This document shows positions 11,181 through 38,076 of a stretch of 64,000 nt of DNA, in pieces (within the stretch, counting starts at the first letter, position 1; each line of letters starts with the position of its first letter). The translations under genes and the position numbers were made by a program. The DNA lies in assembly GCA_950295325.1 (NCBI GenBank), contig OX485809.1, positions 23,016,144 through 23,080,143 on the forward strand, given 5' to 3'. The stretch is from Polytrichum commune. Taxonomy: Eukaryota > Streptophyta > Polytrichopsida > Polytrichales > Polytrichaceae. Below the pieces are notes generated by a model, which did no database searches, was not told where the DNA came from, and worked only from the letters and a program-made list of their open reading frames with translations.

Positions 11181-11193
11181 CAGGGTTGTCTAT

Positions 11194-11413
11194 TGTGTCG
11201 TGACGGAGGGTAATCCCGACATAATGTCGTGCCGTCACGACACGTATCCGTCACGACATTATGCCGGATGCTGTCTTTATCCTGACGGACTTGAATTTTA
11301 CCGATTTTTTTGTGTAATTACATTAACCCATTTCTGACACGTAGGATTTACAATGTCCACGTGTGATGACATGTCAGCAAAGTAAAGGTAAAGTGGGGAA
11401 AAATTTACTAGAG
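11194..11413. promoter_or_regulatory. hAT left subterminal region with CCGTCACGAC motifs
   Basis: The 10-mer GTCGTGACGG or its complement CCGTCACGAC occurs at 11197-11206, 11232-11241 and 11248-11257. The right end has the same word at 37990-37999 and 38006-38015, and a one-mismatch copy at 38040-38049. Repeated subterminal words in both orientations are the usual binding sites of hAT transposases. Binding is inferred. Confidence 0.6.
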
Positions 11414-11937
11414 CCCGTCCGCCCCCCCGTCCGCCTCCGTTCCCAACCCCCGTTCGCCCCCGTTCCCCCCCGTCCGCTCCCGTTCACAATCCCCGTTCGC
11501 CACCGTTCCCCCCCGTCCGCTCCCGTTCCCAACCCCGTCCGCTCCCGTTCCCAACCCCGTCCGCTCCCCCCTCTCCCGTCCGCCCCCCCCCCCCTCCCCC
11601 GTCCGCTCCACCCCCCTCCGTCCGCCCCCCCCCGTCCGTCCGCTCCCCCGTCCGCTCCCCCCCCCCCCCGTCCGCTCCCCCCCTCTGTCCGCTTCCCCGT
11701 CCGCTCCCCCCCTCTGTCCGCTTCCCCGTCCGCTCCCCCCCTCTGTCCGCTTCCCCGTCCGCTCCCCCCCGTCCGTCCACTCCCCCGTCCGCTCCCTTGT
11801 CCGCTCCCCCCCCCTCCGTCCGCCCCCCCGTCCGTCCGCTCCCCCGTCCGCTCCCCCCCCCCTCCGTCCGCCCCCCCGTCCGGTCCCCCCCCCCCCTCCG
11901 TCCGGTCCCCCCCCCCCTTCCGTCCGCTCCCCAGTCC
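11414..11937. repeat. C-rich tandem array upstream of the transposase gene
   Basis: About 520 bp built from CCGTCCGCTCCCC-type words with variants CCGTTCCC and CTGTCCGCTTCC, including three consecutive copies of a 29-bp unit at about 11680-11770. The minus strand is dense in G runs, so G-quadruplex formation is possible. The array ends 11 bp before the TATA box of the transposase gene. Related arrays precede the two other hAT-borne genes. Long Pro/Arg or Gly/Arg frames through it are compositional artefacts. Confidence 0.85.
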
Positions 11938-11948
11938 GATTCGAATAC

Positions 11949-11955
11949 TATAAAT
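11949..11955 (+). promoter_or_regulatory. Probable TATA box of the hAT transposase gene
   Basis: TATAAAT lies directly after the C-rich array and about 235 bp before the chosen ATG (12186). A good splice acceptor (TTTATTTGCAG, ending at 12171) sits between them, so the 5' leader probably contains an intron. Confidence 0.55.
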
Positions 11956-12185
11956 TGAGGGTTCAAGGTGCCATTTTTGCCTCCACTGACATAGTGTGTC
12001 TCAAGTCTTTTGATTCTCCTTTGAGGAGTGAGGATTGAATGCGTGAGACCCGAATGCAGAGGATACTTTGTCCAATCTAGTGACTGTGAATTAGGGTTGC
12101 CCTTGTGGCACTCTTGAACAGGACCTAGTATGCGATCAAAGTTACTTGCTCTAACTTGTTTTTATTTGCAGGTTTTGTTGAAGTC

Positions 12186-15100
12186 ATGCCACGCCGAAAT
12201 GATGCATGGGATCATTGGTACGAGGATAAGGGGATGGTTCCCGGTAAATCACAAAGGCAGGTTAAATGTAGGTTTTGCCCGTTCGTCATATCTTACCGAG
12301 GAAATAGAATGTTGGCCCACCTTGGTTATAGACCTCCTGTAGGGGGTGCTTGTGATGTTTCCACATGTAGGATGGTACCCCCGCATATTAGGGTCTTGTT
12401 TGAACATTGCGGAGGCATTGTGCCCTTACATGTAGGCATTGTAAATGAGGACTCTCCGGTGCCAGATATTGTACCTCTGGAGCCTATTATAGCGGACTCC
12501 GTAATTAGTGAAACAGAGCCTTTGCTTATGTCCCAATCCACTCAACATTCTGATGTTGTGATATATGGCACACCTCCTCGTGAACTACGTCAACTCAACA
12601 TAACGGAGGGGTTCAATGTGTCAACAAAACAACTCCTTGATAGAGCATGGGCAACGGCTTTTTATGAAGCTAACATTCCTTTCAACATTGTGAGACATCC
12701 TGCATTTGTTCATGCTGTGCGTGAAACTGCCCGTCATCGAATGCCAGCCTACACACCACCATCGTACAATGCCATCCGTACGAAGTTGTTAACTGATAAA
12801 AAGGTTGACCTAGATAGGCAAGTGAAGGAGAAGATGGGGAATTCCGTTGAAAAATACGGTGTTACAATATGTTGTGATGGATGGGACAACGTGCAAAACC
12901 GACCTCTCCTAAACGTTCTCCAATGCGGCACAAAGGGAGATGTTTTCTTGGGTACCATTGATACCACGGGAAATCACAAGGATCATGTATACGTTGCTGC
13001 TCAAATTCAACCATTTGTGGAAAAGGTTGGTCGACATAATGTGGTCCAGATTTGCACCGGCAATGCCCCAGTTATGGCCTCCGCTGCTCGCGACTTGATT
13101 CAAGCAAATCCTGATCTATATTTTCAAGGATGTGCTGCGCATTGCCTAGATCTCCTCTTAGAAGATTGGGGGAAGGAGGAATGGGTGAAAAAGTTGGTAA
13201 AAAAGGCGCGCCATATTTGTGTTTTTATCAAAAACCATCATGCTTCTCAAGCTATATTCCGGAGGTTGTCACCAAATCTCTCACTCCGCCTACCTGTAGA
13301 GACCCGTTTTGCAACGAACTTCATCATGATAGATCGTCTTCTTCAAGTACGCAATGCTTTGGAAAGAATGGTGGTTGATGAGGATTGGCCTACTCTAATG
13401 CGTGATATGAGGAGGAGATCTCGCACCTCTTACATGAAGGGCTCTGCTGTGCGAAGCTTTATACGTTCTGATGGATTCTGGAACACGTGCGAAAATTTCT
13501 TGTATATGGTGATCCCGGTTGTTAAAGCTCTTCGTGTATTTGATGGCAAGGCGCCTGCAATGGGAATGGCTTGGAGGGTCATGCATGATTTACAAACCCA
13601 TATTCGTGGATTCAGTAAACCTCCATTTCGCTTAAGCCCTGAGCTTGCTGCAAATGCTATGCTAACGTTTCAAAATAGATGGAGGTTGATGTTGAATGAT
13701 CTACATTGGGCTGGAGCGATGTTAAATCCGCTTCTACGTGGTTGGGCCCCACTCCATGAGGATGAGAATTCGAGGACAATCCTAAATCGAGTTCTTCGCA
13801 GGCTTGCTCAAGATGAGGACACTTATGTCCAAATCCTCCACCAGTACCAAGATTTCCTTGAAAATCGAGGGCCTTTTGCTGATTCTACTGACCCGAACGT
13901 GCATGCCGCACCTCTCCATGAATGGTGGGATGCAATGGGAGGTGGAGCTAAAGCCCTCCAAACAATAGCAAGACGTATCCTTGCACAAGTATGTTCCGCA
14001 TCCGCATGTGAACGCAATTGGAGCATGTACTCATATGTTCACAACAAGAGTCGCAATCGCTTGAAGCATAGTTGTGCCGAGGACCTCGTCTACATATATA
14101 CCAATAGTAGGCTCATTCGACATCGGAGGGGCCCAAGACCTGCGCAATGGTACGAATTGAATGAGGTCCATTCTGACGATGACCTTGACGAAGAAGATGA
14201 CAATGAAGATGACGTGGATCCAAATGATAGTGCAGGAAATGATGTTGACAACAATGTTGATGACATCGACTTTGATTTGGATGACCTCGATTCCGAGAAT
14301 CATGATTCAGAAGATGAGGATGGCAATGGTAGTGATGGAAACCTTGGGGTGTTTGATTTTGATGAACCGGATGTCCCCCAACATAATGACGGAATGCATG
14401 ACGATCATGAGGGGTCTATTGGAGGACCGCCTTTTGAAACTCTCCACATTGGACAAGGGTTTCGCCCTGCCCATAATGTTGCTATGGGGGCAAGTGAGAA
14501 TGTAGGAATTGAAGTAGATTCCTTGCAACCTTGGAGCGATTCTCTTTCTTTTGGTGAAGGTGACAATGTACTACCCGCAAATGAGCCAACGCACGTTCAA
14601 CAGGATCCATTTCCAGCCCGAGTACATTCTGAATCCATGGACGCCTCCCTCATATCCAACCATCGTATAGAAGATCAAACACCCAATGTTCCTGAAATAC
14701 CTACAACTCGATTCCGTGCTCTTCAAAGAACTGCATCAACCTCTACGGTGCAAGTGCATGCACAAGGTCAACGTCGTCCTCTCACTCGAAGTATTGCCAA
14801 TACTTCTAGATTGGGTGTTTCACGTGCAACTGCGGTGGGTGCTACTTTGGTTGCTATATACAATGTTTCAAGAAATGTTACTACAGAGGCGCCACGTCGT
14901 CATTCTGTTTGTCGACATGTTGTTGAGAACATACCAATTGCAATTCCATCCGCATCAGTTTCACTTCCACACAGTCAATCCAATGGAACATGTGGCCTTG
15001 GAGTTGGAGGCGGAAGTACAACGGGGGATGCTTTTATAGATGGAAGTAGAGATGAAGTGCACTCAAGTCGTGGTACGGGTGGAGGGCGTCAGAGAACTAC

Positions 15101-15383
15101 GAGAGGTGTCAAACGTACTAGGAAGAGGTATCAGGGAAGATCGCTTCCGTTTACTGCTGAAGACTACAATGAAGATGAGGGTAGACCACATCTAGATGAA
15201 AATGGCATACAGGATGCAGAGGGCTCCCGGCCGACCAAGAAGATAATTTTCTCACAACGTGACCGAGAGTTGCATCTTCGGAGCGCGACTCCCCAAACGG
15301 ATGATGATTGCAGCACAGACGAGTCTGAAGAGGACCCAAGATGTGTCGGAGCAAATGATCCCACAGTACGGATTCGAACGTAA
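12186..15383 (+). CDS. hAT-family transposase with BED finger and acidic C-terminal extension
   Basis: A 1065-codon uninterrupted frame. ATG 12186 (MPRRNDAWDHW) is chosen because the frame upstream crosses a splice acceptor at 12171 and a BED finger follows at once: Cys28-x2-Cys31, His45, Cys61. Next come the DUF659/RNase-H-like core with CCDGWDN (Asp231, first catalytic Asp), the CAAHC helix (about 316-320), and the hAT dimerisation region (about 600-650: AQVCSASACERNWSMYSYVH with the catalytic Glu of CERNWS). The second catalytic Asp, normally in TDN, reads TGN here (Gly292, GGC at 13059-13061), so this copy is probably catalytically dead through one A-to-G change. The last 400 residues, unusual for the family, include a long Asp/Glu tract (about 660-720) and a basic patch (RTTRGVKRTRKR). 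Excision and insertion of the host element is the family role. An AATAAA follows at 15541. Confidence 0.9.
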   Translation: MPRRNDAWDHWYEDKGMVPGKSQRQVKCRFCPFVISYRGNRMLAHLGYRPPVGGACDVSTCRMVPPHIRVLFEHCGGIVPLHVGIVNEDSPVPDIVPLEPIIADSVISETEPLLMSQSTQHSDVVIYGTPPRELRQLNITEGFNVSTKQLLDRAWATAFYEANIPFNIVRHPAFVHAVRETARHRMPAYTPPSYNAIRTKLLTDKKVDLDRQVKEKMGNSVEKYGVTICCDGWDNVQNRPLLNVLQCGTKGDVFLGTIDTTGNHKDHVYVAAQIQPFVEKVGRHNVVQICTGNAPVMASAARDLIQANPDLYFQGCAAHCLDLLLEDWGKEEWVKKLVKKARHICVFIKNHHASQAIFRRLSPNLSLRLPVETRFATNFIMIDRLLQVRNALERMVVDEDWPTLMRDMRRRSRTSYMKGSAVRSFIRSDGFWNTCENFLYMVIPVVKALRVFDGKAPAMGMAWRVMHDLQTHIRGFSKPPFRLSPELAANAMLTFQNRWRLMLNDLHWAGAMLNPLLRGWAPLHEDENSRTILNRVLRRLAQDEDTYVQILHQYQDFLENRGPFADSTDPNVHAAPLHEWWDAMGGGAKALQTIARRILAQVCSASACERNWSMYSYVHNKSRNRLKHSCAEDLVYIYTNSRLIRHRRGPRPAQWYELNEVHSDDDLDEEDDNEDDVDPNDSAGNDVDNNVDDIDFDLDDLDSENHDSEDEDGNGSDGNLGVFDFDEPDVPQHNDGMHDDHEGSIGGPPFETLHIGQGFRPAHNVAMGASENVGIEVDSLQPWSDSLSFGEGDNVLPANEPTHVQQDPFPARVHSESMDASLISNHRIEDQTPNVPEIPTTRFRALQRTASTSTVQVHAQGQRRPLTRSIANTSRLGVSRATAVGATLVAIYNVSRNVTTEAPRRHSVCRHVVENIPIAIPSASVSLPHSQSNGTCGLGVGGGSTTGDAFIDGSRDEVHSSRGTGGGRQRTTRGVKRTRKRYQGRSLPFTAEDYNEDEGRPHLDENGIQDAEGSRPTKKIIFSQRDRELHLRSATPQTDDDCSTDESEEDPRCVGANDPTVRIRT

Positions 15384-16082: not shown

Positions 16083-17996
16083 CTAATCCGAATCTGAATC
16101 GAGGTCTATTCTAGCTGAAGTAGATCCTCGTCGTGCTCGTGATGATTCCCCCGCTTCCATGCTTTGCGTTGTTCCACGGGTGAGGTATGGACGACTACCA
16201 GAAGACAATGGAACGGCATTACGTGGTCTAGGCCCACCATTTGGCCATCTCAATACCACATCATCCGCAACTCTATGCAAGAGTGCATCAATTGCAGCCA
16301 ACTGCAGCCTGTTCTTGTGGTACCCCACCTCTAACTGCAATTCATATCTCGGATCCCGTTCCGTAGGCATGTCATCTGCATCTTCTTCCAAATCATGCTC
16401 CGATACTGATTCGAGACCTGCTGCATTGTACCAAGGAGGATGAATGCCTCTCTTTAATTGTCTGCTGGTTGAATCCCAATGCCATTCAAGAGTTTGGTAC
16501 AAAAATCTTTTCAAGCCATGATCGGGGGGCTTGTTGGGATACAACTCGTCTGCAACATATAAAATTTGACGTGCATTCCGTGTCCAGTCGCCATCTCTGT
16601 TCTCATGCCATAGCTCAACATTGGCACAATTGTATAACCAACTCCACTCAACATTCTCTCCATCAAACTCTTGAAGATCGAAGGGAAAGTCCCATGGCTT
16701 TAATACCCAGTCGTTAGGCATGTAATCCCGAAGGCCAAATTGGAGGTACAAACGAGGGTGGAAGGGTGATCTGCAATTAGGACATTGGCGTTTCTTGATT
16801 ATATTCTCTATTAGACATTGTGGATGGAATTGGGCCCCACATGATCCAGCTTGATAGCATCCCTCTGGGCCAAATGGACATTGGCAAATCGCACATGCGG
16901 TTCCGTCGAAGACCATTGTATGTGGATTTGGCCATAACAACTCACCCCTCATGCGGAATGGATATTCATGCACTTGGGTCACATCCCAATGGTGATCTGG
17001 GTCGGTCACTTGACGCCAATCGATGCTCCCGCTTGGCAATGTCCACTCATTATCCCTATCCCACCTACTAGGGTACATCTGCTCATCTTCTGGCCATGAC
17101 GTGAGCATCATATTCCGCATTTTCTGATTGCGGTTCCATTCTTTCTGGATGCTCTCAAACTCAGCTTCAAATTGATGAGCCTTGGCCATAGCAAGCAATG
17201 TGCTTGTCCTCATATTTTTGCGCTCCACAATCGCATCCAACAGAGATTTCTTCAACCTTGCATTCTGCTCCTCCAGTCCGCCAATCTTGGCTTCGTGATC
17301 AACAACCACTTTATTGACCACTTGAAGTTGTTGTTGCATGTCCACCACCTCCTTTTGCAAAGCCTCCATCTTTCCTCGCATTACTTCATTCCTCATACAT
17401 ACCTCCAAAGCTTGTGACTTTGCAATCTTGGCCTCCCGTAAAGCTGCGTCCCTCTCTGCTTCCAAAGACTGAAGGTTAATTGGTGTACTACTTGAACTGC
17501 TAGCCTCCTCCATCGTAAGTGTTGCAACTCGATTTTCCAACTCGAAAATCATCGTTTTATACTCACGAATTTCCAACGCATGTTGCTTACGCAATTCCTC
17601 CATTCTGCTCTCCGTCGGGTCCACTCCATGTTCACCAAGGTTTACCTCGTCTAGGACCTCGTTAACCACGTCGTTGATCAGGTTGTTGACCTCGACATTT
17701 GCCTCCATGCCCTCATCCATATGCTCAAACGCCTCCTCGATGGCCATCTGCACGTCATTGGCTGGTCGTTTACGATTACGTGATTTTTTTGGTTCCCGAC
17801 CCTCTAGAATTGGGGCCCCAGGCTCGTCCACTAGTCGAGGATTCCTCTTGAACCACTCCGGAACCGGAGTGTATGGAATATCTGGAACTGTGCATTTAGT
17901 GAATGCAATTCCGATACCCCCAAATTTTTGACCATGCAGGGTAGCCAAACTTGACCAATCCACCCTAACTCGCAACACGTGCTCCGCATACATCAT
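16083..17996 (-). pseudogene. Coiled-coil/RING-like cargo protein of the hAT, 3' part (split by gypsy)
   Basis: This is the downstream 637 codons of a hAT-borne gene whose 5' part is at 28870-29289; removing the gypsy element and one ACACG copy joins both in frame (SVAC then MMYAEHVLR). In order: a conserved-looking N-terminal block, a basic patch (KKSRNRKRP), an acidic stretch, a coiled coil of about 170 residues (MEELRKQHALEIREYKTM onward), then a RING-like finger CAIC...SCGAQFHPQC...CPNC (plus strand about 16780-16905). One metal ligand of a classic RING-H2 is replaced: CGAQFH instead of CGHxFH. The finger is followed by a Trp-rich segment, and the tail ends DLDSDSD. RING proteins often act as ubiquitin ligases, but the altered ligand leaves the function open. 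No closer family was recognised. Confidence 0.7.
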
Positions 17997-18001
17997 ACAC
18001 G
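17997..18001. repeat. 5-bp target-site duplication of the gypsy element
   Basis: ACACG directly precedes the left LTR and recurs at 28870-28874 directly after the right LTR. Five bases is the standard duplication of Ty3/gypsy integrases. Confidence 0.9.
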
Positions 18002-19830
18002 TGTGAGGCCAAACCCCCCACCCTTAAGCGTCCGTAGTCCGAGTAGTGGGTTTGGGCTCACATTCCTCCGCGGTATTGGATTTGGACTCGGATGAGTCCA
18101 TAGTGCAAGGTTCACCCTTCAAGTGGTCTTGGATTTAACTTTGGTCTTTGCTTCCTTTGTCTTGCCATCGCGAGAGTGCTCCACATTCTCCATTAATTTG
18201 TGCACGTGGTTTATTTTTAAAGAGAGGATGCAAGTGTTAAAAAAACACTATTCTCTATAGTCAATCTCAAATACATTTACTTGTGAAAGCCACACATAAC
18301 ACTAACTAGCATAATGTAACTAACTACTTGTCTATGAGCTAATTAGGTAGGCTATCTACTAAGCTCCTTCATGAACCCATCTCTTTACTTTCTAATTACA
18401 TAAACCTAGCTCCTTCATAAACCCAGCTCCTTCATAAACCCAGCTTCTTAGCTTCTAACTAAACAAACCCAGCTCCTTCATAAACCCAGCTCCTTCATGA
18501 ACCCAGCTCCTTAGCTTCTAACTAAACAAACCCAGGTCCTTCATAAACCCAGCTCTTTACTTTCTAACTAAACAAACCCAGCTCCTTCATAAACCCAGCT
18601 CCTTCATAAACCCACAACTTTGTAGTTGTAATCCCCAACTACCTCACTAATTATTCAAGCCCTTAACTAATCTTCCTACCTAATTTCCCTAATTCTACTA
18701 ACAACCCCTTTCTAATCACACAATTCTTCTCTAATCCTAAAATCCTAAAATCCTAGAGAGGAGAGGGGGAGAGAGAATTTCCTAACTTCACTAAGACTAA
18801 CTAATCCACACAAGTATATTTTTGCACTCATCACAACATCAAGTGCTCAACTCTTAAACATGGAACTTGCAACCACGTGTATTCAAAACATGAACTTAAA
18901 GTACCACAAATTGGAATCATGAATTAACTTTAAAATCCTTCACGTCAACACTAATTCTACCAAGAGGTCAAGCCCTCTTCAAGGCTAACAAGCCTTGGCT
19001 CTCAAACTAAAAACTAAGCACACACATGTGCTCCAATATGGCTTCCCACACCCACACTTATAACTCGTGGGGTGCCTTGGAGCACAAAGGAAAGAGAGGG
19101 TGAGTGAGGGAAGAATGAGGGATTATATAGTAAGCTTGAGGGGGTGAGCACCCTCAAGGCTCACGATAAGCCCTTGAGATTTCCTCCTACTTAGTAGGCG
19201 CCAATCCTATCTTCTAAGCCTTCCTCCCTCAAATGATCAACAAGGATCCTAATTCGAACATTTAACTAGCCTTGGCTTTCTACCTACCACACTTTACTAA
19301 ACTTGGGATGCTTCAACCCAAACTTAGCCTCCTTCGCTTTCCGCCGCCATAACTTTCTCCCCTTACTTTCCCAAATCGTCGCTCACCACTTAATTCAAAC
19401 CACGATGCTTAACTCGTGATTTGATTGGTGCTTTGAGAATTTGCTTATCCTCCACCTTGCATTCTTCCTTGGGCCTTCCCCATTAAGTGGCCATGATGAG
19501 GTGGTCCACTTGTGCGCTCCATGTGATCCTCCATTCATCCCAATTCGAATGCACTTGCCTCTTGAGTCACTTTGGTTGTCTCCATCCATTTGTACTAGCC
19601 TACTCACTAACTACTCAATCCAAGTTCTCCTTACCTATCCTCATTCACTCAAATCCTTCCGAAGGTAAAAACACAATAACAACTCACATCCTAGCCTCTT
19701 ACAACATGGTACTTCTAAGACTAACATTTCATTCTTTTTATATTTTTGTGAAGTAACATGCTACTTCAAAGTGCATCAACTAACGTTTCAAGGGTCTAAG
19801 ACTAAATGTGGGCACCCTTTTGGGCTCACA
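18002..19830 (-). repeat. Gypsy 3' LTR (relative to gag-pol)
   Basis: Read on the minus strand it contains a TATA box CTATATAA (19130-19123) about 700 bp from its start and AATAAA (18215-18210) about 210 bp before its end, which fits U3-R-U5 order and the gag-pol direction. A minisatellite of about 17 bp (CCCAGCTCCTTCATAAA with variants) fills about 18400-18615. Confidence 0.9.
18400..18615. repeat. Minisatellite CCCAGCTCCTTCATAAA in the LTR
   Basis: Tandem and interspersed copies of a 17-bp unit, interrupted by TTCTAACTAAACAAA segments. The other LTR carries the same array at about 27439-27654. Confidence 0.8.
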
Positions 19831-19891
19831 TAATTGGCGACCATCGGGGGATGAATCCAAACATCTCTTGCTCCAAGGGTAAGTTGCCTAG
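19831..19891 (-). other. Gypsy gag-pol to 3' LTR junction without a polypurine tract
   Basis: Only 61 bp separate the gag-pol stop from the 3' LTR. The sequence abutting the LTR reads CCCCCGATGGTCGCCAATTA on the element strand, which is not purine-rich. On the opposite strand it reads TAATTGGCGACC, resembling a primer-binding site and mirroring the TAATTGGTGCGTCC at the other LTR. Confidence 0.5.
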
Positions 19892-22800
19892 TCAAGCTCG
19901 GTACTCCTTACATCTACTTCCCGATGTACGGGTAGGAAAGAGCTCACCATTCAACGTTTCCAATTGAATTGAATTATTAGGAAAGACCTCATAGACAAGG
20001 TAAGGTCCTAACCATACCGCATTGAATTTCGCCGGAAATTCAAGCTTTCGTGCGTCTTGAATCATGACCATCATTCCCGGTGTTAGGGCCCTTCTCTTAT
20101 GTCGTTTGTCGAAAGTAATCTTTCTCCTTCTTTGGATTGCCTCAATATGTTGAGCCGCCATTCTCCTCCCTTCGTCAAGTGCTTCCAAATCGGTTAGTTG
20201 ATTTCGTAAGGATTGACTTTCGTTAAGTCTCGTACTCACGGCCACCCTAAGTGACTCGACTTCATATTCGATTGGTAGTGTCGCTTCAAGACCATAGACT
20301 AAGGAAAATGGTGTAGCACGCGTAGTTACCTTATAGGTTGTACGGTATGCCCAAAGTGCCGCCGTTAGTTTCGTATCCCAATCCCGCTTCGAGTCTATAA
20401 CCGTCTTGCGTAGTATACTCACCAAAATTCCGTTAACCCTTTCCGTTTGTCCATTGGTTTGTGGGTGGTAGGGAGTAGTCTTCCGGTGATCAATTTTAAA
20501 TTTCTCTGTCATCTCTCGAATCAAGTCATTCAAAAAGTGAGTACCTCTATCGCTTACTAGGATCTTCGGCACCCCGAACCGCGAAATTATGTTTTCGTAC
20601 ATAAATGTTGCCGCGTGTTCCGCCGTGTCGGTCTTCACCGCTTTGGCTTCCGCCCACTTGGTGAGGTATTCGGTTGCCACCACAATATATTTCATTCCTT
20701 TTGAAGATTGGGGATGGACCTCACCCACATAGTCGATGCCCCATTTTTCGAAAGGAATTAAGGGTAATGATACATGTAAAGGCATCTCCATTCTAAGGTC
20801 GTTTCGGGCATACCGTTGGCAAGCGTCGCATTTCCTTACATAGTCATGGGCGTCCTTAAATAGTGTAGGCCAAAAGTAGCCCGCTCTAAGTATTTTTTGC
20901 CCGGTGAGTTGACCCGAGAAGTGACCGCCGCAAGCGCTATCGTGGCAAGCGATTAAAATCGCTTCAACCTCCGTTTTTGACACGCATCGTCGTAAAATAC
21001 CATCGGACCCCCTTCTAAACAACCTATGGCCCACTACAACAAATTGCCTACTATTTACCCTCACCTTCCTTCTCTCTTCTTTTGTCCACTCTTTGGGCAA
21101 CTTGTGGGTTGTTAGAAATTCCACTATGCCCGCATACCACGCCGGTGTAGAAGTGACCACAAAGAGGCTATCATCTACTAACATATCATTTACCGGATTT
21201 TTTCCTATCTCCTCCGACAACCTAGACAAGTGGTCCGCTTGTAAATGCATACGACCCGGTTTATATTCCACCGTGTAGTCGAATTCTTCTAATAACAAAA
21301 CCCACCTAGCTAACCTACCACTTAACTCCGCCTTGTTAATTAGATACTTGATAGCCATGTGGTCAACAAAAAATACAACCGGGTTGCACATGAGGTAATG
21401 CCTAAACTTTTTAACGGAAAACACCATGGCTAGGCACTCCCTCTCCGTTGTAGAGTAGTTTCTTTCGGCGGGGGTCAATTGCTTACTCGCATAAGCTATA
21501 GGTTGATCCTTCTCTTTTTCTCCCGTTGCTTGACAAAGCGCACTCCCTATTGCCACATTACTAGCATCACAATAGACGTGAAAATGTTTACCCCAATTGG
21601 GTGGTATCAACACCGGATAGGTGCTCAACCTATCCCGCAATTCCTCAAAGGCTTTTTGACAAGCATCCGTCCACTCGAATTTGACATCCTTTTTGAGCAA
21701 ATGGGTAATGGGCACCGCTATCTTTGAAAAATTAGGAATAAGTTCCCGGTACCATCCCACATGTCCTAACAACTTAGAGATCCCCTTGGAATTGGTTGGA
21801 GTTGCCAAGTCGCTTATGGCCGCAATCTTATCCGGATCGGGTTCTCTACCTTTCTCACTAACAACATAACCCAACAACACTCCCTTATTCACTCCCAAAA
21901 ATGTCTTATCCGGGTTCAATGCTAACCTCATCTTCCTACACCTAACCAATGCCTCCCTAACACAATGTAGGTGATCATCCACATTACTTTGTGTGCTAAA
22001 ATCGTCCACAAAGACGGTCATGGATTTGAACAACAAGTCGGTGAAGATATACATTACTAATCGTTGGAAAGTAGCCGGGGCATTACATAACCCAAATGGC
22101 ATCACTACCCACACAAAAGTACCCCAAGGTGTAGTAAAAGCCGTTTTATGGATATCTTGGAGGGCTATGGAAATTTGATTATAACCCGCATACCCATCCA
22201 TAAAGGTATATCGCGAATGACCTCCAACCTCCTCAAGCAACAAGGTGATAAAAGGTAAGGGGAAGTGATCCTTTTGTGTGCACGAATTCAATTTCCTATA
22301 GTCGACACAAACCCTTAATTTCCCATTTTTTTTCTTTACTAAGACCATAAGAGAAACCCAATCCGTGATTTCCACCGGCTTGATAAACCCGGCCTTCAAT
22401 AACCTTTCCAATTCCGCTTTCACCAACAATTGCAATTGAGGATTCATCCTCCTCTCCTTTTGTCTAATTGGCCTCGCCCCCGGAATTAAAGGAATCCGGT
22501 GCTCTACCATTTCCCTAGGAATTCCCTTAAGCTCATCGTAGGACCATGCAAAAGTATCACTAAACTCATCCACCAAATTGCTATACTCCCTAACCTCTTT
22601 CTCCCCCAATTTGGAGCCCATCTTCATTTGTCGGGTTTTTCCATTCTTTAATTTCACATCCACGTACCGCCAATCCGCTTCCGACACATGTGCTTGTTCC
22701 TCTTTGTTCCGATACCAATCGGAAGGCACATTGGGGTAATCTTTCACATCTTGACCTACAACTATCCCCGTAGACGTGGTCTTGAAATGTAAAGGCTCCT

Positions 22801-26131: not shown

Positions 26132-27040
26132 TCCATAAGAATCGATCGACCCTCACTTGACCACACATAATCCTAGCAATTCCCCTCTTAATATTTTCAC
26201 TTGTCTTGGTGTGGTTATAATTTTTTTAGGAGGTGAGGAAAAGAACCTGCAAGCCCACTTAGGTGAAAGAATCCCAATAGGGGATAGGCATGTTCATGTT
26301 AATTTTTTGGTTAAGTCGGAGCATCACCTCCGCACCTTCCCGCAAATTAACACTCACCACAATACCGATTGTGAGGGGGTGACCTTCCGAGTAGATTATG
26401 TTAAAAGTCGAGGCTTCACCCTTCAACTTCTCACACCATCCACAATTCGGGAATTACCCTCTACAACGGATAACAACAATCACGAGTACAAAAGGCATTC
26501 CTTAATTAGTTAATGAGTTCACTTTGAAGAAATAAACATACCTTGAGCAATCGCATCCCCCTGTGAGTTAGCACTCCCCTCAATCGTGACTCAATGTAAC
26601 AACACCATAAACTTTGTGAAACATTAATTTAATCTAGAGCATGAAATGACAACTCCCAAAACTTTGAGACTCACCCCGAGGTGAGTGTCAAAGTTCAATG
26701 TCCTAAGGTGAATTTACCCTCTAATGTTTTAATGAGCTACTCGGTTATAGGTTCCTTTTAAGTTCTTAGCAAATCCCCAAAAAGGTTGAGGACGTACCTT
26801 CGCCGCGCTCCTTCCTCAAAAATGAATTTGCGTAATTGAAAATGCAATTCATTCCAAGGAATAGTTGAAATACAATGAATTCAAATGTAACCCAAAGAGA
26901 GAATACTTACCGAGTTTCGGGTGCTCCTTCCCTTCTCTCAAGTTTGTGTCTCCAATTTTTCCTAGTTGCCTCCAAGTCTCCTAGTCGCCTCCAAGTCTTG
27001 TAACTACCTTCCGCTTCGCTCCCGGCGGACGCACCAATTA
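26132..27040 (-). other. Gypsy 5' leader with primer-binding site
   Basis: The untranslated leader lies between the 5' LTR and gag. Directly after the LTR the element strand reads TAATTGGTGCGTCCGCCGGG. TGGTGCGTCCG would pair with the 3' end of a tRNA ending CGGACGCACCA and is the likely primer-binding site. Nothing coding was seen in the rest. Confidence 0.6.
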
Positions 27041-28869
27041 TGTGAGGCCAAACCCCCCACCCTTAAGCGTCCGTAGTCCGAGTAGTGGGTTTGGGCTCAC
27101 ATTCCTCCGCGGTATTGGATTTGGACTCGGATGAGTCCATAGTGCAAGGTTCACCCTTCAAGTGGTCTTGGATTTAACTTTGGTCTTTGCTTCCTTTGTC
27201 TTGCCATCGCGAGAGTGCTCCACATTCTCCATTAATTTGTGCACGTGGTTTATTTTTAAAGAGAGGATGCAAGTGTTAAAAAAACACTATTCTCTATAGT
27301 CAATCTCAAATACATTTACTTGTGAAAGCCACACATAACACTAACTAGCATAATGTAACTAACTACTTGTCTATGAGCTAATTAGGTAGGCTATCTACTA
27401 AGCTCCTTCATGAACCCATCTCTTTACTTTCTAATTACATAAACCTAGCTCCTTCATAAACCCAGCTCCTTCATAAACCCAGCTTCTTAGCTTCTAACTA
27501 AACAAACCCAGCTCCTTCATAAACCCAGCTCCTTCATGAACCCAGCTCCTTAGCTTCTAACTAAACAAACCCAGGTCCTTCATAAACCCAGCTCTTTACT
27601 TTCTAACTAAACAAACCCAGCTCCTTCATAAACCCAGCTCCTTCATAAACCCACAACTTTGTAGTTGTAATCCCCAACTACCTCACTAATTATTCAAGCC
27701 CTTAACTAATCTTCCTACCTAATTTCCCTAATTCTACTAACAACCCCTTTCTAATCACACAATTCTTCTCTAATCCTAAAATCCTAAAATCCTAGAGAGG
27801 AGAGGGGGAGAGAGAATTTCCTAACTTCACTAAGACTAACTAATCCACACAAGTATATTTTTGCACTCATCACAACATCAAGTGCTCAACTCTTAAACAT
27901 GGAACTTGCAACCACGTGTATTCAAAACATGAACTTAAAGTACCACAAATTGGAATCATGAATTAACTTTAAAATCCTTCACGTCAACACTAATTCTACC
28001 AAGAGGTCAAGCCCTCTTCAAGGCTAACAAGCCTTGGCTCTCAAACTAAAAACTAAGCACACACATGTGCTCCAATATGGCTTCCCACACCCACACTTAT
28101 AACTCGTGGGGTGCCTTGGAGCACAAAGGAAAGAGAGGGTGAGTGAGGGAAGAATGAGGGATTATATAGTAAGCTTGAGGGGGTGAGCACCCTCAAGGCT
28201 CACGATAAGCCCTTGAGATTTCCTCCTACTTAGTAGGCGCCAATCCTATCTTCTAAGCCTTCCTCCCTCAAATGATCAACAAGGATCCTAATTCGAACAT
28301 TTAACTAGCCTTGGCTTTCTACCTACCACACTTTACTAAACTTGGGATGCTTCAACCCAAACTTAGCCTCCTTCGCTTTCCGCCGCCATAACTTTCTCCC
28401 CTTACTTTCCCAAATCGTCGCTCACCACTTAATTCAAACCACGATGCTTAACTCGTGATTTGATTGGTGCTTTGAGAATTTGCTTATCCTCCACCTTGCA
28501 TTCTTCCTTGGGCCTTCCCCATTAAGTGGCCATGATGAGGTGGTCCACTTGTGCGCTCCATGTGATCCTCCATTCATCCCAATTCGAATGCACTTGCCTC
28601 TTGAGTCACTTTGGTTGTCTCCATCCATTTGTACTAGCCTACTCACTAACTACTCAATCCAAGTTCTCCTTACCTATCCTCATTCACTCAAATCCTTCCG
28701 AAGGTAAAAACACAATAACAACTCACATCCTAGCCTCTTACAACATGGTACTTCTAAGACTAACATTTCATTCTTTTTATATTTTTGTGAAGTAACATGC
28801 TACTTCAAAGTGCATCAACTAACGTTTCAAGGGTCTAAGACTAAATGTGGGCACCCTTTTGGGCTCACA
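27041..28869 (-). repeat. Gypsy 5' LTR (relative to gag-pol)
   Basis: Same 1829 bp sequence as 18002-19830, offset by 9039 bp, with the promoter TATA at 28169-28162 on the minus strand. Confidence 0.9.
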
Positions 28870-29289
28870 ACACGCCACCGACTTTGGAATTGCACTCTTG
28901 GGCCATCTATCCAAATTGGAGATACTTCTAAGTATCGTTAGGAATCTCCATTTTGCCTCCACGTCATCAAGCTGCATATAACTCGCACTGATGGCCTTGC
29001 AGTGTCGCTCGTGACAAGGTCTTGGCCACAACCGATCAAAGTGAGGGAAACCCACGTACTGCATTGCAGTCTTCACTGACCACGGTTGTGGTACATTCTC
29101 CCAACCTGCCCTGGCTTTTTGAGTGTTGTCATCATAAACATCCCACTCCAACCCAGCGGCCTTGCGTACATGTGATCTGTGACAACCTGATCCCCCACTT
29201 GCCATGTCTCCAGATCCTCCACTTGCACTTGCCATGTCTCTAGATCCTCCACTTGCCATGTCTGGAAATCCTTCACTTGCCGGATCCAC
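28870..29289 (-). pseudogene. RING-like cargo gene, 5' part
   Basis: 140 in-frame codons (VDPASEG... to ...PKSVAC) that continue in phase into the 16083-17996 frame once the gypsy insertion is removed, giving at least 777 residues. It starts with a Gly/Ser/Asp/Met-Ala repeat (GGSGDMASGGSG), then a globular stretch containing WDVYDDNTQKARAGWENV and HFDRLWPRPCHERHC. The frame stays open to about 29322 with no ATG, so the true start is in an upstream exon; AATTAG at about 29306-29311 on the minus strand could be the acceptor. The transcript presumably starts below the TATA at 29734. Confidence 0.6.
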
Positions 29290-29734: not shown

Positions 29735-29740
29735 CCCCTC

Positions 29741-30710
29741 CATCCGCTCCCCGTTCCCACCCTATTCGCACCCGTTCCCTCCCGTCCGCGCCCGTTCCCT
29801 CCCGTCCGCGCCCGTTCCCCTCCCAGTCCGCACCCGTTCCCGCCCCCGTCCGCACTCGTTCCCCTACGTCCGCCCCCCGCGTTCCCCTCCAGTCCGCACC
29901 CGTTCCCTCCCAGTCCGCGCCCGTTCCCCTCCCAGTCCGCACCCGTTCCCTACCAGTCCGCGCCCGCGTTCCCCCCAGTCCGCACCTGTTCCCTCCCGTC
30001 CGCGCCCGTTCCCCCCCAGTCCGCACCCGTTCCCCTACGTCCGCCCCCCGCGTTCCCCCCAGTCCGCACCCGTTCCCAAACGTCCGCATCCGTTCCCCCC
30101 AGTCCGCACCCGTTCCCAAACGTCCGCATCCGTTCCCCCCCAGTCCGCACCCGTTCCCCTACGTCCGCCCCCCGCGTTCCCCCCAGTCCGCACCCGTTCC
30201 CAAACGTCCGCCCCCCACGTTCCCCCCAGTCCGCCCCCGTTCCCAAACGTCCGCATCCGTTCCCAAACGTCCCCTACGTCCGCCCCCCGCGTTCCCCCCA
30301 GTCCGCACCCGTTCCCAAACGTCCGCCCCCCACGTTCCCCCCAGTCCGCCCCCGTTCCCAAACGTCCCCTACGTCCGCCCCCCGCGTTCCCCCCAGTCCG
30401 CACCCGTTCCCGCCCCCGTCCGCACCCGTTCCCAAACGTCCGCCCCCTCGTTCCCTACGTCCCCCCCCCCTCCTCGTTCCCTACGTCCGCTCCCTCGTTC
30501 CCTACGTCCGCCCCCTCGTTCCCTACGTCCGCTCCCCTCAGTCCGCTCCCGCGTTCCCCCCGTCCGCTCCAACCCGCCCCCCCCCCGTCCGCTCCATGTT
30601 CCCTTACGTCCGCTCCAACGTTCCTATAAGTCCGCCCCATGTTCCCCTACGTCCGCTTTAGAGTTCCCCTGCGTCCGCTCTAGCGTTCCCATGCGTCCGC
30701 TCCCGAGTTC
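29741..30710. repeat. C-rich tandem array upstream of the RING-like gene
   Basis: About 970 bp of alternating CCGTTCCC, AGTCCGCACC, TACGTCCGCCCCCCG and AAACGTCCGC words with higher-order repeats of about 50-110 bp. It shares the CCGTTCCC and GTCCGC words with the arrays at 11414-11937 and 36868-37790. On the strand of the gene it serves it is G-rich. The apparent frames of 300-384 codons through it are artefacts of a stop-poor composition. Confidence 0.85.
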
Positions 30711-31166
30711 CTTTGAATCTGCACTTTTTAACTTTTTTTGGAAGTTTGGACATAGTCTCGGTTTTTTGGCTCTCAAAAATTCATATGAAGTCCAAAAAAT
30801 GATTTCTTGGTATCCATGGATAGGTAATGAAGTCCTCTACATGAATATGCAATAATATTTCTACTGCACATTCCCGCGTCCCTCCATCCGCACCCCATCT
30901 AACTTAGGCCCTTTGCAAATAATATATGTGACACTAAATATCATTACCGGTGTACTTATCCACACAAAACTAATGAAGGATCCCTCAAGCAACAAAGTAA
31001 CCAATGTAGTATGATGACCAACAAATTATCACCCCTATGGAGACAACGATGTACAAGTAATGACTTTATTATTGCGACGACGGTACAAATGCCCTTTATA
31101 AATTACATACATGAACAAACCATGCACGATTTAATATTCCACTTCATTCCGTCAACTTGACTTCCG
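30711..31166. other. Spacer inside the hAT, nothing recognised
   Basis: Mixed A/T-rich sequence after the array, with no open frame of note and no repeat. Confidence 0.5.
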
Positions 31167-31727
31167 TCATGGCAACCTCGTAGATGCTTGTGGCTTCCGT
31201 CGAGGGTCCATTTTTTGGAGAGGATTCGGTCGAAGTAAATCAACATAGCTAATCGTTCGGTCTTTCATCCGTTCCTTCAATGGTAGCCGATGAGGCGATA
31301 ATCCTCTCCTCTTCTTACGAAAAGGCAAAATCCTTGAAGATTCTTCCGCTACCTTGACATCTTCAATGTCGATTGAAGTCTCCTCCACATCCACATCCCC
31401 GGGCTTCTCCAAAATATCCGCACACAAATCAATCAGATCATTTAGATCTCCACCCACGCATTGTGTGTTGTCATTCTCCACCGCATCGATCTCAAAGTTG
31501 TCCGCATATCGTCGTTGGTCCTCCTCCGCCCTCATCCTCCAAGCTTGTGTAGATTATGAGAAGGGAGTCATGACATACTCATCACGAAATCGATCCCTAG
31601 CACATCTCTCATCTCTCTCACGCTCGGTTGATGGATTGAATGGAATATCGGGTTCACCTAAATTTTCTATCTCCTCATCACATCCTAGACCCTCAAACAT
31701 GTCTCTCTTCTCTCCCATCATATCCAT
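31167..31727 (-). pseudogene. Unrecognised acidic/basic ORF with one internal stop
   Basis: A minus-strand frame from ATG 31727 (MDMMGEKRDMFEGLGCDEE) runs 57 codons to TAA (31554-31556) and continues in the same frame for 129 more codons to 31167. The first part is acidic and Arg/Asp-rich (RDERCARDRFRDEY), the second acidic, then strongly basic (RKKRRGLSP). A TATATAAG lies at 31769-31776, 42 bp upstream. One stop in an otherwise open 187-codon frame behind a TATA box suggests a recently broken small gene, or a stop hidden by splicing. The family is not recognised. Unlike the three hAT genes it has no G/C-rich array. Confidence 0.4.
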
Positions 31728-31985: not shown

Positions 31986-32274
31986 CATTCAACAATTCAC
32001 ATATTTGAGCTTCAACCTTAGTGGTTCGTATAGTTTCACAATCCACACGCATTCGAATGTCATATTAATTCAACAAAGTACATATTTGTGCTTCAACCTT
32101 TGTGGTCCATATGGTTTTACAACGCATATTAGGCATCCGAATGCCATCTTCATTCAACAATTCACATATTTGAGCTTCAACCTTAGTGGTTCGTATGGTT
32201 TCACAACCCACACGCATCCCCTTGCCCTTTCATTCGACAATTCACATATTTGTGCTTCAACCTTTGTGGTTCAT
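31986..32274. repeat. Tandem repeat of about 82 bp, 3.5 copies
   Basis: Units begin CATTCAACAATTCACATATTTG and contain CTTCAACCTT(A/T)GTGGTTCGTATGG. Copies start near 31986, 32069, 32151 and 32231. Odd and even copies differ in a shared way (GAGCTTC against GTGCTTC), which suggests duplication of a dimer. Confidence 0.7.
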
Positions 32275-32311
32275 AAACCCTAAACCCTAAACCCCTAAAC
32301 CCTAAACCCTA
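32274..32311. repeat. Interstitial plant telomere repeats (CCCTAAA)5
   Basis: Five CCCTAAA units, one with an extra C, abut the 82-bp tandem array. This is the land-plant telomere unit, here deep inside a transposon. Confidence 0.85.
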
Positions 32312-34640: not shown

Positions 34641-36557
34641 CTATTTTGCAGTGTCACGGAAGCACATTGTCGGGTTAACCATGTTGTATGGAGGGGACTT
34701 CAAAATGTTCACTACGTGTGTGATGGTTGACCTTTCCGCTGGATTGGTCTTCGTCAATGAATCCAATGCTAACTCAAACCGCATATTCAAGCCATTTGGA
34801 TCACTGTTTAGCTGAAACAAGGGGGAAGTCGCATCCCTGGCATAAATCTTCTTTGCCAAAGCACCCACTGAGAAGGACTCCGATAGAAACGTGTGCCTAT
34901 GTTTCCGAGCCATCCTCACCGGAGAGGTGGATGTTCCACGTTGCCCTCGTACATGGAATAATTCTGGACCAGCACAGTTGTATTTTGCTTTGTGCTTGTT
35001 CATCTCATCCACTGAATCTTTTCCATAGTTGGAGGGTGCGTCTTCACCTCCCCAGGATGCCATGCCCCAATCACACACACCAATGTAAACCGTGTTCTCA
35101 CGGTCTTGTGGGAAATGCAACATGACATTGTTGGGATTAAGGTCATTGTGCAACACGTTATGCTTGTGCACTACATCCACAATGCACATTAGAGCCCATG
35201 CCAAATAAGCTCGATGCCTTCGATATACAACCAACCGTTTCCGTGCTTCAAAGTCTGCCCCAGGCATGTGAAGGATTGTGCGCTCGTGGGTTTCCGGAAC
35301 GCTGAAGTCATAGATCCTCATGTTTTTCAAGGAGCCTCCATTCCACCACATCGAATAGGATTCGTATGTTTTCATATTGAGGTATTGTAGCTTGATTACC
35401 CCAGGATGATCTACTGGACACGCCAATGCTTCAACTGAACGTTCCTTTCGATTCTCCAAACTATTCGTGGCCTTCATGGTCTTCCCAGCCCACTCTATCC
35501 AGCTAGGGATGAATGATGCTCCATGAATTGCGACTCTCCGCACCACTCCGAAGGTCCCTTGGAAGATTTCCTTATCCAAGGCTTTGATCTCCGCATTCCT
35601 AGGCAACCATATGACACCCTGCCGGCCCTGAGTGGCAATGTTGTCTGCCATCTGCCTGTCAATAAAAATGGGAAGGTTGCGGGCGGATGTTCCTTTTGCT
35701 GCTATTACGCCTCTTTTCCAATTCTCTAGCTTCATGTACAGCTCGGACTTCCTGCCACTACTACTTCCCTCGCTAGGATGCACAGCATCATATGCCATTG
35801 TTGGATTGTAGATTGCTTCCACGGCTTGTTGTTCAATCCAGGTGCCCCAATCGCTCATGCCCCTAGCATCTTCAAACTCCGCTCCAGCCGTGGCTTCCGT
35901 GAGAATAAGAATCAAATCGTTCCTCACCAAATCCAACCCCTTTGTACCATCATTGAGGTATTTTTTTTCCAAATAAACCATGCTGTTATTTCTAAACCAC
36001 TCCAACAGCACGACCCTACAATGGTTTCGAGCCTCATCGATCCGCGGGTCGCGTTTGCCTCTATTTTTCCTTTTCCTCGATTGCGAACCTGAAACCCCGG
36101 ACCCCTCCTCCGTCCCTTCCGAAATTGCTGGGCGTTTTTGTCCCCGTCTTTCACCATGCTCCGAACCCTGAGGTACATCACGTGCAGGGCTCTCCGGTCT
36201 TGATGTCCGCCGTGTCGGAGATCGTGGTGGCACGGACTCTCCATGAGTGGCTGCATTTATATCGGTGGAACTGCCTGAGCTTGGTCCCCTTCCTGTTCTC
36301 CCTCTATGTCCACTGTTTCCCCGACTCCCACGTGTTCCACGGCTTCCACGTGTTTGGTTGCCTCCTGAATGGCCAACTGCAAAGAACTCTTCGTCAAACC
36401 GAAAAGGATCTGGACGTGGGGGACGTGCTGCAGTGCTTCCACTTCCGGCCTCGCTTCCCGTACCCTCTCCAGTATGCGCAAGTGGAGTGCTTTGGAGCCA
36501 AGCACGGTGCAGCCTCGTATCCTCGTCTTGGTAAGGAGCAATGTCCTCCCCCTCCAT
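34641..36557 (-). CDS. Protein-kinase-like cargo protein of the hAT
   Basis: A 638-codon frame from ATG 36557 (MEGEDIAPYQDED); the open extension upstream of this ATG is low-complexity leader sequence between the TATA box and the start. Residues 1-180 are disordered and Gly/Ser/Arg-rich with a basic patch (RKRKNRGKRDPR, about 161-172). Residues 181-300 are helical and unassigned. A kinase fold follows: glycine loop GTFGVV (334-339), Lys359 or Lys362 (AGKTMK), helix-C Glu376, catalytic loop LHNDLNPNNVML (Asp472, Asn477), DWG in place of DFG (Asp496), APE-like GPELF (530-534). The Lys normally two residues after the catalytic Asp is Asn here. The invariant Lys, Asp and Asn appear present, so activity is possible. 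The substrate is unknown. It sits at the right end of the hAT, facing inward, 300 bp from a G/C-rich array. Confidence 0.8.
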   Translation of the reverse strand: MEGEDIAPYQDEDTRLHRAWLQSTPLAHTGEGTGSEAGSGSTAARPPRPDPFRFDEEFFAVGHSGGNQTRGSRGTRGSRGNSGHRGRTGRGPSSGSSTDINAATHGESVPPRSPTRRTSRPESPARDVPQGSEHGERRGQKRPAISEGTEEGSGVSGSQSRKRKNRGKRDPRIDEARNHCRVVLLEWFRNNSMVYLEKKYLNDGTKGLDLVRNDLILILTEATAGAEFEDARGMSDWGTWIEQQAVEAIYNPTMAYDAVHPSEGSSSGRKSELYMKLENWKRGVIAAKGTSARNLPIFIDRQMADNIATQGRQGVIWLPRNAEIKALDKEIFQGTFGVVRRVAIHGASFIPSWIEWAGKTMKATNSLENRKERSVEALACPVDHPGVIKLQYLNMKTYESYSMWWNGGSLKNMRIYDFSVPETHERTILHMPGADFEARKRLVVYRRHRAYLAWALMCIVDVVHKHNVLHNDLNPNNVMLHFPQDRENTVYIGVCDWGMASWGGEDAPSNYGKDSVDEMNKHKAKYNCAGPELFHVRGQRGTSTSPVRMARKHRHTFLSESFSVGALAKKIYARDATSPLFQLNSDPNGLNMRFELALDSLTKTNPAERSTITHVVNILKSPPYNMVNPTMCFRDTAK

Positions 36558-36781
36558 CGTGAAAAAAACCGCGTGAGTGAGTGAATGTAAAAAGGAGTGA
36601 GTGAATGTAGAAATGAGTGCGTGAATCTGGAAAAAAAATTGCGAGGGTTCCCCCACAATTTGCCCTGCCCTCCCAAACCCCCTGAGACCCGCGCGGTGCC
36701 GCTGTCCTTGGGACGGCAACAAGGTCTCGGGTCCCTTTGTGGTGGGAGGAGAGGAAAGTGAGGGGAACTAAAACCCCACGG

Positions 36782-36790
36782 CTTTATATA
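36782..36790 (-). promoter_or_regulatory. TATA box of the kinase-like cargo gene
   Basis: CTATATAAAG context on the minus strand (TATATAAAG, 36790-36782), 225 bp before the ATG and about 80 bp from the edge of the G/C-rich array. No in-frame ATG precedes MEGED in the expected transcript apart from the in-frame one at 36722; the shorter start was preferred because the extension is Phe/His/Thr-rich leader-like sequence. Confidence 0.65.
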
Positions 36791-36867
36791 GGCAAAGGGG
36801 AGCACAATCATTATGGGATCCCGGTCGGATTTGACATGGGGCACGAAAAGGACGTATGGGGAATGTG

Positions 36868-37790
36868 GGAACGCGGGGGCGGACGGAGGGAACGAGGGGG
36901 CGGACGTAGGGGAACACGGGCGGACGGAAGGGAACGGAGCGCGGACGGGAGGGAACGTACGGGAACATGGGGCGGACGGGAGGGGAACGTGGGGCGGACT
37001 GGAGGGGAACGCGGGCGGACGGGAGTGGAACGTAGCGCGGACAGGAGGGAACATGGGGTGGACGGGAGGGAACGTGGGCGGACGGGAGGGAACGTGGGCG
37101 GACGGGAGGGGAACGTGGGCGGACGGGAGGGGAACGTAGCGCGGACAGGAGGGAACATGGGGCGGACGGGAGGGAACGTGGGGCGGACGGGAGGGAACGT
37201 GGGCGGACGGGAAGGGAACGTGGGGCGGACGGGAGGGAACGTGGGCGGACGGGAAGGGAACGGGTGCGGACTGGGGGGGAACGGGCGCGGACGGGAGGGA
37301 ACGCGGTAGGGAACGGGTGCGGACGTTAGGAAACGTGTGGGAACGTGAACGCACGGCGGGGGAACGTGGGGCGGACGTGAGGGAACTTGGGGCGGACGGA
37401 GCCCTCCGCGTTCCCCCCGTCCGCCCCCGCGTTCCCCCGTCCGCTCCAGCGTTCTCCCCCCCGTTCCCAACCCCCTTCCGCCCCACCCCTGTCCGCTCCA
37501 CCCCCTCCCCCGTCCGCTCCACCCCCCTCCGTCGTCCGCTCCACCCCCCTCCGTCCGCCCCACCCCCGTCCACTCCACCCCCTCCCCCGTCCGCTCCACC
37601 CCCCTCCCCCGTCCGCCCCACCCCCGTCCACTCCACCCCCCTCCGTCCGCCCCACCCCCGTCCGCTCCACCCCCCGTCCGTCCGCACCACCCCCCTCCCC
37701 CGTCCGCACCACCCCCCTCCGCCGTCTGCACCACCCCCCTCCGCCGTCCGCACCACCCCCCTCTCCCGTCCGCCCCACCGTCCGCCCCAC
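36868..37790. repeat. G-rich/C-rich inverted tandem array upstream of the kinase-like gene
   Basis: From 36868 to about 37400 the plus strand repeats GGACGGGAGGGAACGTGGGC-type words. From about 37401 to 37790 it switches to CCGTCCGCTCCACCCCC words, so the two halves form one large imperfect inverted repeat centred near 37400. The first half faces the kinase gene. The second half is the right-hand counterpart of the array near the left hAT end. Cruciform or G-quadruplex structures are possible. Confidence 0.85.
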
Positions 37791-38055
37791 ACCTTCCTTA
37801 GTCATATTTTTCTACTTTGATTTTAACAGAACCCTAAACACAATGGCAAAATGGTTTACTTGGCAAGGGAAATATGCACATCCACGTCGGCGTTTTCTGC
37901 CACATAGGACGCCACCTTGGCAAGAAGGTAAGTATTTTACCCACCCTAGTCCATTCCCCCCTATGTTGACCCTACGTGGACCCTATTGTGTCGTGACGGA
38001 GGGGTCCGTCACGACACGACCTGACATGACGGCACGACACCGTCATGACGTCGCG
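37791..38055. promoter_or_regulatory. hAT right subterminal region
   Basis: Contains GTCGTGACGG at 37990-37999, CCGTCACGAC at 38006-38015 and CCGTCATGAC at 38040-38049, the same words as at the left end. The stretch CTATTGTGTCGTGACGGAGGG (about 37983-38003) repeats the sequence at 11190-11210 in direct orientation. No gene. Confidence 0.6.
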
Positions 38056-38068
38056 ATAGACAACCCTG

Positions 38069-38076
38069 GACAGATC
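38069..38076 (+). repeat. 8-bp target-site duplication of the giant hAT, right copy
   Basis: GACAGATC, identical to 11173-11180. Confidence 0.95.

Follow-up and report, generated by a model that had tools for sequence, protein, structure and literature searches.

The window, by which we mean the whole stretch of DNA analysed, is 64,000 nucleotides long and comes from Polytrichum commune (assembly GCA_950295325.1, contig OX485809.1, positions 23,016,144 to 23,080,143 of the forward strand). It contains a giant transposon of the hAT superfamily that encodes, together with its transposase, a RING-like protein, a small acidic protein and a kinase-like protein. The features of the element and its borders are given below by window position, with ORF standing for open reading frame and LTR for long terminal repeat.

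11173-11180: left 8-bp target-site duplication, GACAGATC
11181-38068: giant hAT element, delimited by its ends and target duplication
11181-11193, plus strand: left terminal inverted repeat, CAGGGTTGTCTAT, 13 bp
11422-11938: C-rich tandem array of CCCCCGTCCGCT-like units, subterminal
12186-15383, plus strand: hAT transposase with DUF659 and Dimer_Tnp_hAT, a single unbroken ORF (the frame is open from position 12129, and its first Met lies at 12186)
16083-18001, minus strand: 3' part of the RING-like gene (probable coiled coil, RING-like domain, C-terminal region)
18002-28869, minus strand: nested Ty3/gypsy element, which does not belong to the hAT element; its LTRs lie at 18002-19830 and 27041-28869 and its gag-pol frame at 19892-26152
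28870-29259, minus strand: 5' part of the RING-like gene, severed by the gypsy element; start set by comparison with another copy, cA
29750-30711: C-rich tandem array whose inverted counterpart is the G-rich array at 36874-37399
31170-31727, minus strand: fourth gene, about 186 amino acids, acidic, with one in-frame TAA in the window copy
34641-36557, minus strand: kinase-like gene with a Pkinase match of 1.5e-6 (the ORF extends to 36767, and 36557 is its first likely Met)
36874-37399: G-rich tandem array adjoining the kinase-like gene
37401-37790: C-rich tandem array, subterminal
38056-38068, minus strand: right terminal inverted repeat, an exact inverted copy of CAGGGTTGTCTAT
38069-38076: right 8-bp target-site duplication, GACAGATC

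A sequence-only reading of the window had claimed exact borders for the element (an 8-bp duplication, 13-bp inverted ends and a restored frame of a long interspersed nuclear element, LINE), all of which we verified. The inverted repeats are exact over 13 bp, with scattered matches only beyond that, and removal of the element with one copy of the duplication leaves a LINE-like frame open through the joint. The claimed length of 16.0 kb without the gypsy element also holds, at 16,015 bp once that element and its own duplication are subtracted. The gypsy element, with LTRs of 1,829 bp each, no mismatches between them and a 5-bp duplication (ACACG), is very young. It sits within the RING-like gene and divides it, a point on which the first description needed correction. 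The window copy of the hAT element looks dead. It is broken in at least three places: by the gypsy element in the RING-like gene, by the stop in the small gene, and by a G in the transposase at the TDN position where 29 of 30 copies have D.

Transposase domains, 8-bp duplication, inverted ends and acidic residues together place the element in the hAT superfamily. An extract of one source defines hAT elements by an 8-bp target duplication and inverted ends of 5-27 bp, and gives a typical length of less than 5 kb (PMC10741241). Our copies exceed that length at 15.6-16.0 kb, length being a typical and not a defining feature. The transposase matches PF04937 (DUF659, 3.1e-34) and PF05699 (hAT dimerisation, 8.6e-10), both above the cut-off; an alignment to Hermes over the same C-terminal region was not significant (E 1.9). 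Among the copies read, window included, the acidic positions are present in 30 of 30 for CDGW, 29 of 30 for TDN and 30 of 30 for the E of CERN, which we take to be the catalytic D, D and E. The target duplication is perfect in five of the seven elements for which both flanks were read (window, cA, cB, L001 and L008), and the remaining two have swapped flanks, consistent with an inversion between them.

The genome searched comprises 408 Mb in seven large contigs. The exact end motif occurs in it 1,009 times (494 forward and 515 reverse), and the reversed pattern, used as a control, 0 and 1 times, which excludes a chance origin of the ends. Among the first 100 of the 1,009 places, 37 elements could be paired, 24 of them 0.5-1.8 kb and 13 of them 10.8-35.8 kb long. 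Two more complete copies measure 15,635 and 15,806 bp; in each the 8-bp duplication is perfect and the layout identical. In full-length searches, the best 42 of 298 transposase candidates were 96-100% identical and the best 63 of 308 kinase candidates 88-100%; for RING, 68 of 266 candidates were scored, and the genome search with that gene gave 71 matches. Divergence from the window copy is 0.5-1.0% for the transposase (29 copies) and mostly up to about 1% for the kinase, with two copies at 3-4%, and 1.5-2.2% separates the RING gene of copy cA from three others. These low values mean that the burst of amplification is young.

Short cores of each gene were also searched genome-wide and the pieces merged, with positions taken from the search listings and short second pieces of one copy omitted or merged. 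Candidates scored were 143 of 143 for the transposase, 150 of 190 for the kinase, 150 of 164 for RING and 150 of 495 for the small gene, and the RING and small-gene figures are those among the matches listed. Rows outside the family were decided by identity in the family counts and by position in the old-lineage counts below. The family so defined has 106 transposase, at least 111 kinase, at least 102 RING and, after merging, at least 118 small-gene cores. A RING core lies downstream within 40 kb of 94 of the 106 transposase cores, a kinase core of 83, and both of 75; random placement predicts 1.1 for each, and local shifts of 100-500 kb gave means of 1.4 for RING and 1.1 for the kinase. RING, small gene and kinase are all present in 69 of the 106, RING only in 14 and none in four. 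A transposase-only family is excluded by these counts, which bear out the earlier proposal that recurrence of the set in other copies would mark these as element genes; we hold this with high confidence. The proposal had named two proteins beside the transposase, and both the RING-like and the kinase-like one were found again, but the fourth gene had been missed. Its product in copy cA has 43 D+E against 32 K+R, contains a basic run, KKRRG, and matched no Pfam family.

The kinase, RING and small genes might instead belong to a different mobile element, or to several, with repeated entry into, or recombination with, a hAT carrier. The small gene behaves in part as this would predict: 15 of 118 family copies have no other family core within 40 kb, and a second group, 48-56% identical (29 rows among the matches listed), has no distant transposase within 15 kb in any of the 29. 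Eighteen of these 29 rows are on contig C4, where its length would predict about four, and this contig may have had a history of its own. The kinase gene also occurs in both orientations, opposite to the transposase in 49 cases and in the same direction in 34, with same-direction copies tending to be more diverged. Inverted C-rich and G-rich arrays flank the kinase gene, and recombination between them is the likely cause of the orientation change and accounts for it better than separate entry. The RING gene is convergent to the transposase in 94 of 94 cases, and each of the three copies that were checked from end to end has its genes enclosed by the terminal repeats and a single target duplication. 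We therefore regard separate elements as improbable.

The association of these genes extends to an old, decayed lineage. Below the family range, which reaches down to 88% for the transposase and 82% for the kinase if short pieces are disregarded, the core searches showed an identity gap, followed by relatives at 31-43% for the transposase and 29-47% for the kinase. RING relatives grade down more evenly, with 16 listed rows at 27-45%. Most of the old-lineage relatives, though not all, carry stops. Two pairs of these relatives were neighbours in the core searches. At loci that we fetched, the transposase adjoins RING (L056), RING lies near the kinase (L057 and L058), and the kinase adjoins the small gene (L059), the last being a seed locus and the one place where the small gene joins the old lineage. 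Searches with such fossil pieces yielded 30 transposase, 37 RING and 52 kinase fragments outside the family. Within 15 kb of one another these formed nine transposase-kinase pairs, all divergent (0.15 expected at random, 0.24 under local shifts), four transposase-RING pairs, all convergent (0.10 and 0.16), and five kinase-RING pairs, four tandem and one divergent (0.16 and 0.11). The fossil queries came from loci first noticed for their adjoining genes, at C2:55.5 Mb (transposase-RING), C1:19.09 Mb (kinase-RING) and C4:49.19 Mb (kinase-small gene), so that one seed pair is included in the transposase-RING count and one in the kinase-RING count; none is among the nine transposase-kinase pairs. 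General clustering of transposons was rejected as the cause of the pairs, as none of 5,000 runs with local shifts of 30-300 kb matched the observed counts. At C4:33.947-33.962 Mb, RING, transposase and kinase occur together within 14.7 kb, in the order RING-transposase-kinase (C4:33.95 Mb), whereas the young family has the order transposase-RING-small gene-kinase. Since relatives of the genes co-occur in a decayed lineage with a different gene order, the three-gene set is old and has undergone rearrangement, and its co-occurrence in so distant a lineage disfavours a single recent capture of the cargo.

The kinase-like protein resembles protein kinases at a level below the Pfam threshold, with Pkinase scores of 28.2, 25.3 and 30.2 bits against a cut-off of 31.7. 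The residues that we presume to be catalytic, K (of GK), D (of ND) and D (of CDW), are present in all 14 copies printed, and N547, which we assign to the same set of motifs, in all four copies aligned. The DWG motif reads DWS in one copy and DWD in another. The protein also carries a basic run, RKRKNRGKR. In the plant's own genome no kinase match fell between 47% and 82% identity among the best 150 of 190 candidates. Viral contigs contained no relatives of the kinase-like gene or of the element ends; prokaryotic families (NCBIfam) gave weak kinase-like and SMC-like matches only, and among solved structures the similarities, with ordinary kinases, RNF38-type RINGs and Hermes, were weak.

The RING-like protein has a 5'-encoded part that matched no Pfam family, a probable coiled coil with a weak SMC-like match, and a RING-like domain (1.6e-5) that opens with C-x2-C and closes with CPxC. 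Its zf-RING_2 score of 25.5 bits is below the cut-off of 27.3. With a ligand spacing that we assume from the general RING pattern, seven of the eight zinc ligands are present; the residue two places beyond the third C is A in the readable family copies (27 counted), except for a single one with V, and both fossil RING relatives have H there. Ubiquitin signalling, suggested in the first description, is doubtful, as this fourth ligand is absent from every family copy readable at that position. A working ubiquitin ligase, which might remove a host silencing factor or set the level of transposase, would be compatible with our general account. The RING-like match with its typical start and end, and the histidine found in the two fossil relatives, speak for such a ligase, but the substituted ligand and the score under the Pfam cut-off make it unlikely; the protein is more likely a coiled-coil adaptor than a normal ubiquitin ligase. 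Most full-length copies of the gene are also interrupted by stops. Outside the window five of 39 full-length RING copies are stop-free and 34 carry stops, while stop-free copies number 31 of 42 for the transposase and 37 of 63 for the kinase, all counted on the best-scoring copies of each gene's list, and the three lists are not like for like. In young copies RING is more divergent than transposase or kinase, chiefly by transitions. The gene may be in the course of being lost, a few copies may supply the protein in trans, or it may be a preferred target of methylation and mutation.

Whether selection has maintained these genes was judged from the ratio of nonsynonymous to synonymous substitution rates (dN/dS). 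Between subfamilies it is about 0.5 for RING and kinase, close to that of the transposase; among young copies a value under 1 is not clearly established. RING compared with copy L050 (74% identical) gave 0.51 (bootstrap 0.39-0.65), and the kinase compared with copy L052, which has no stop or indel, gave 0.49 (0.37-0.64), with 0.42 for the catalytic part.

Several results weigh against the view that the extra genes are a maintained part of the element. Besides the domain scores, the missing zinc ligand and the interrupted RING copies described above, they include copy L050, which lacks kinase and small gene, and the behaviour of control frames. Those for RING gave 0.57-1.04, and the lowest (antisense, 0.57) lies inside the interval for RING itself; those for the L052 kinase gave 0.91-1.15, except for one antisense frame at 0.52. 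The transposase value, 0.44 in each of two parts, is a figure without control frames. Three more diverged kinases with stops or frame-shifting indels gave 0.54-0.57, and add little since their control frames reach down to 0.57-0.65; two less diverged ones gave 0.62 (0.37-1.26) and 0.51 (0.30-0.93). Counts of nonsynonymous to synonymous changes (N/S) within the young family are uninformative, at 0.76 for the transposase (p 0.036), 0.91 for the kinase and 2.0, on 21 changes, for the small gene, and pairs of young RING genes gave 0.63-1.11.

These results bear on the possibility that the kinase, RING and small genes ride along as passengers, picked up a single time in an ancestor and copied only by virtue of lying between the ends. 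The young-family ratios, the stops in most full-length RING copies, the loss of two genes from one copy and the existence of 0.5-1.8 kb derivatives too short to hold genes are all as expected of passengers. The dN/dS of about 0.5 between subfamilies is not, nor is the retention of all three genes in 69 of 106 copies, nor the finding that relatives of kinase and RING still adjoin transposase fragments that are only 31-43% identical. On balance, passengers seem slightly less probable even than separate elements.

We favour, with moderate confidence, a single account in which the window holds a decayed copy of a recently amplified giant hAT family with a four-gene kit (transposase, RING-like protein, small acidic protein and kinase-like protein) whose extra members have an accessory role. 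The transposase would cut and paste the element, and the other proteins, working in trans, would influence the transposition complex or host silencing and so allow more spread of the element. The kinase-like protein, to judge from its basic run and its kept catalytic residues, would most likely phosphorylate the transposase or a chromatin factor. Taken separately, the suggestion that the accessory proteins act on the transposase or on silencing is tentative and falls a little short of even. We give about the same tentative standing to a further proposal, that of a very old hAT lineage with its own selected and order-reshuffled signalling kit, which would counter host silencing or license transposition. 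Service to the host, with the element as a Starship-like carrier of useful cargo, is the least probable of the readings considered and in our view very improbable. The long-term conservation of the non-transposase genes would suit such a carrier, but each gene has more than 100 scattered copies, many of them decayed. The gap between 47% and 82% (best 150 of 190) leaves the kinase with no obvious host homologue, and searches of the plant's own genome gave no close host donor among the matches listed.

The family also reshapes the genome, through short derivatives, a probable 154-kb inversion and the changes in kinase-gene orientation. The short derivatives L008 (526 bp) and L001 (1,450 bp) have family ends and perfect 8-bp duplications, and both ends of L001 match those of the full element; the same-ended elements of 0.5-1.8 kb were most likely moved by the family's own transposase. 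In L003-L006 (C1:2,330,601-2,366,356 and C1:2,520,064-2,532,921), two oppositely oriented elements each have a left and a right flank that disagree, yet the flanks of one agree with those of the other when reverse-complemented, a pattern that probably reflects recombination between these copies with inversion of about 154 kb. Three elements of 15.6-15.8 kb at C1:21.84-21.97 Mb have identical match scores and similar neighbours, and are probably a segmental duplication of the giant element.

Other features of the window lie outside the element. The LINE-like ORF upstream of the insertion site (8963-10801) has an RNase H match just under the cut-off (3.4e-5) and, unexpectedly, a match above the cut-off to the PCIF1 WW-domain family (1.1e-9). 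Just outside the right border (39135-39414) are about six nearly identical copies of a 46-bp tandem unit. A second ORF with a hAT C-terminal dimerisation domain (54500-55444; 1e-6) gave no match in a tblastn comparison with the element's transposase, and at 56689-58131 an uninterrupted ORF of 480 amino acids encodes a protein of the type of citrate/arsenite transporters (CitMHS, 2e-55).

As a rule, hAT elements are short and have a single gene. Ac, like the present element, begins with CAGGG. The window element shares with Ac-like hAT elements DUF659, the C-terminal dimerisation domain, the 8-bp duplication and the short inverted ends; its family differs from them in its length of about 15.6-16.0 kb, in three extra genes in most listed copies, and in internal GC-rich tandem arrays. 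The cargo of the Pack-MULEs (MULE, Mutator-like element) consists of fragments of many host genes, whereas one gene set recurs in most listed copies of the family described here. Both Pack-MULEs and CACTA elements are, like it, large elements carrying non-transposase genes, and an extract on CACTA elements gives them lengths above 10 kb and a gene cargo (PMC10741241). ToxhAT was once named as a long hAT element with cargo, like that in the window. Part of one account gives this 14-kb fungal element a TA duplication of 2 bp and ends of 74 bp, and the authors of that account now think the hAT label wrong (PMC12506042); the window element has an 8-bp duplication and 13-bp ends. In word searches of the literature, no paper stood out as describing a hAT element with RING and kinase genes.

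Closest in working are the Vandal and KIU (Kaonashi) MULEs, likewise plant DNA transposons with conserved non-transposase genes, of which the present family is no member. In the portion of the source consulted, the VANC protein of Vandal MULEs directs hypomethylation of related elements and KIU adds an Ulp1 domain (PMC13317346). The two belong to another superfamily, and the proteins of our element that were scanned had no Pfam match to a MULE transposase, VANC or Ulp1 domain; its extra genes encode a kinase-like protein, a RING-like protein and a small protein without a Pfam family. For Vandal and KIU, anti-silencing is reported; for the present family it would be a role proposed by analogy. 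Stop-free copies of all four genes exist, so that control of the transposase or of host silencing by phosphorylation is directly testable. The multi-copy family and its older, reshuffled lineage suggest that a lasting set of signalling proteins can travel with cut-and-paste transposons. If the further proposal of an old lineage with its own signalling kit is true, this kit would be a hAT counterpart of the VANC/KIU system, made of different proteins.

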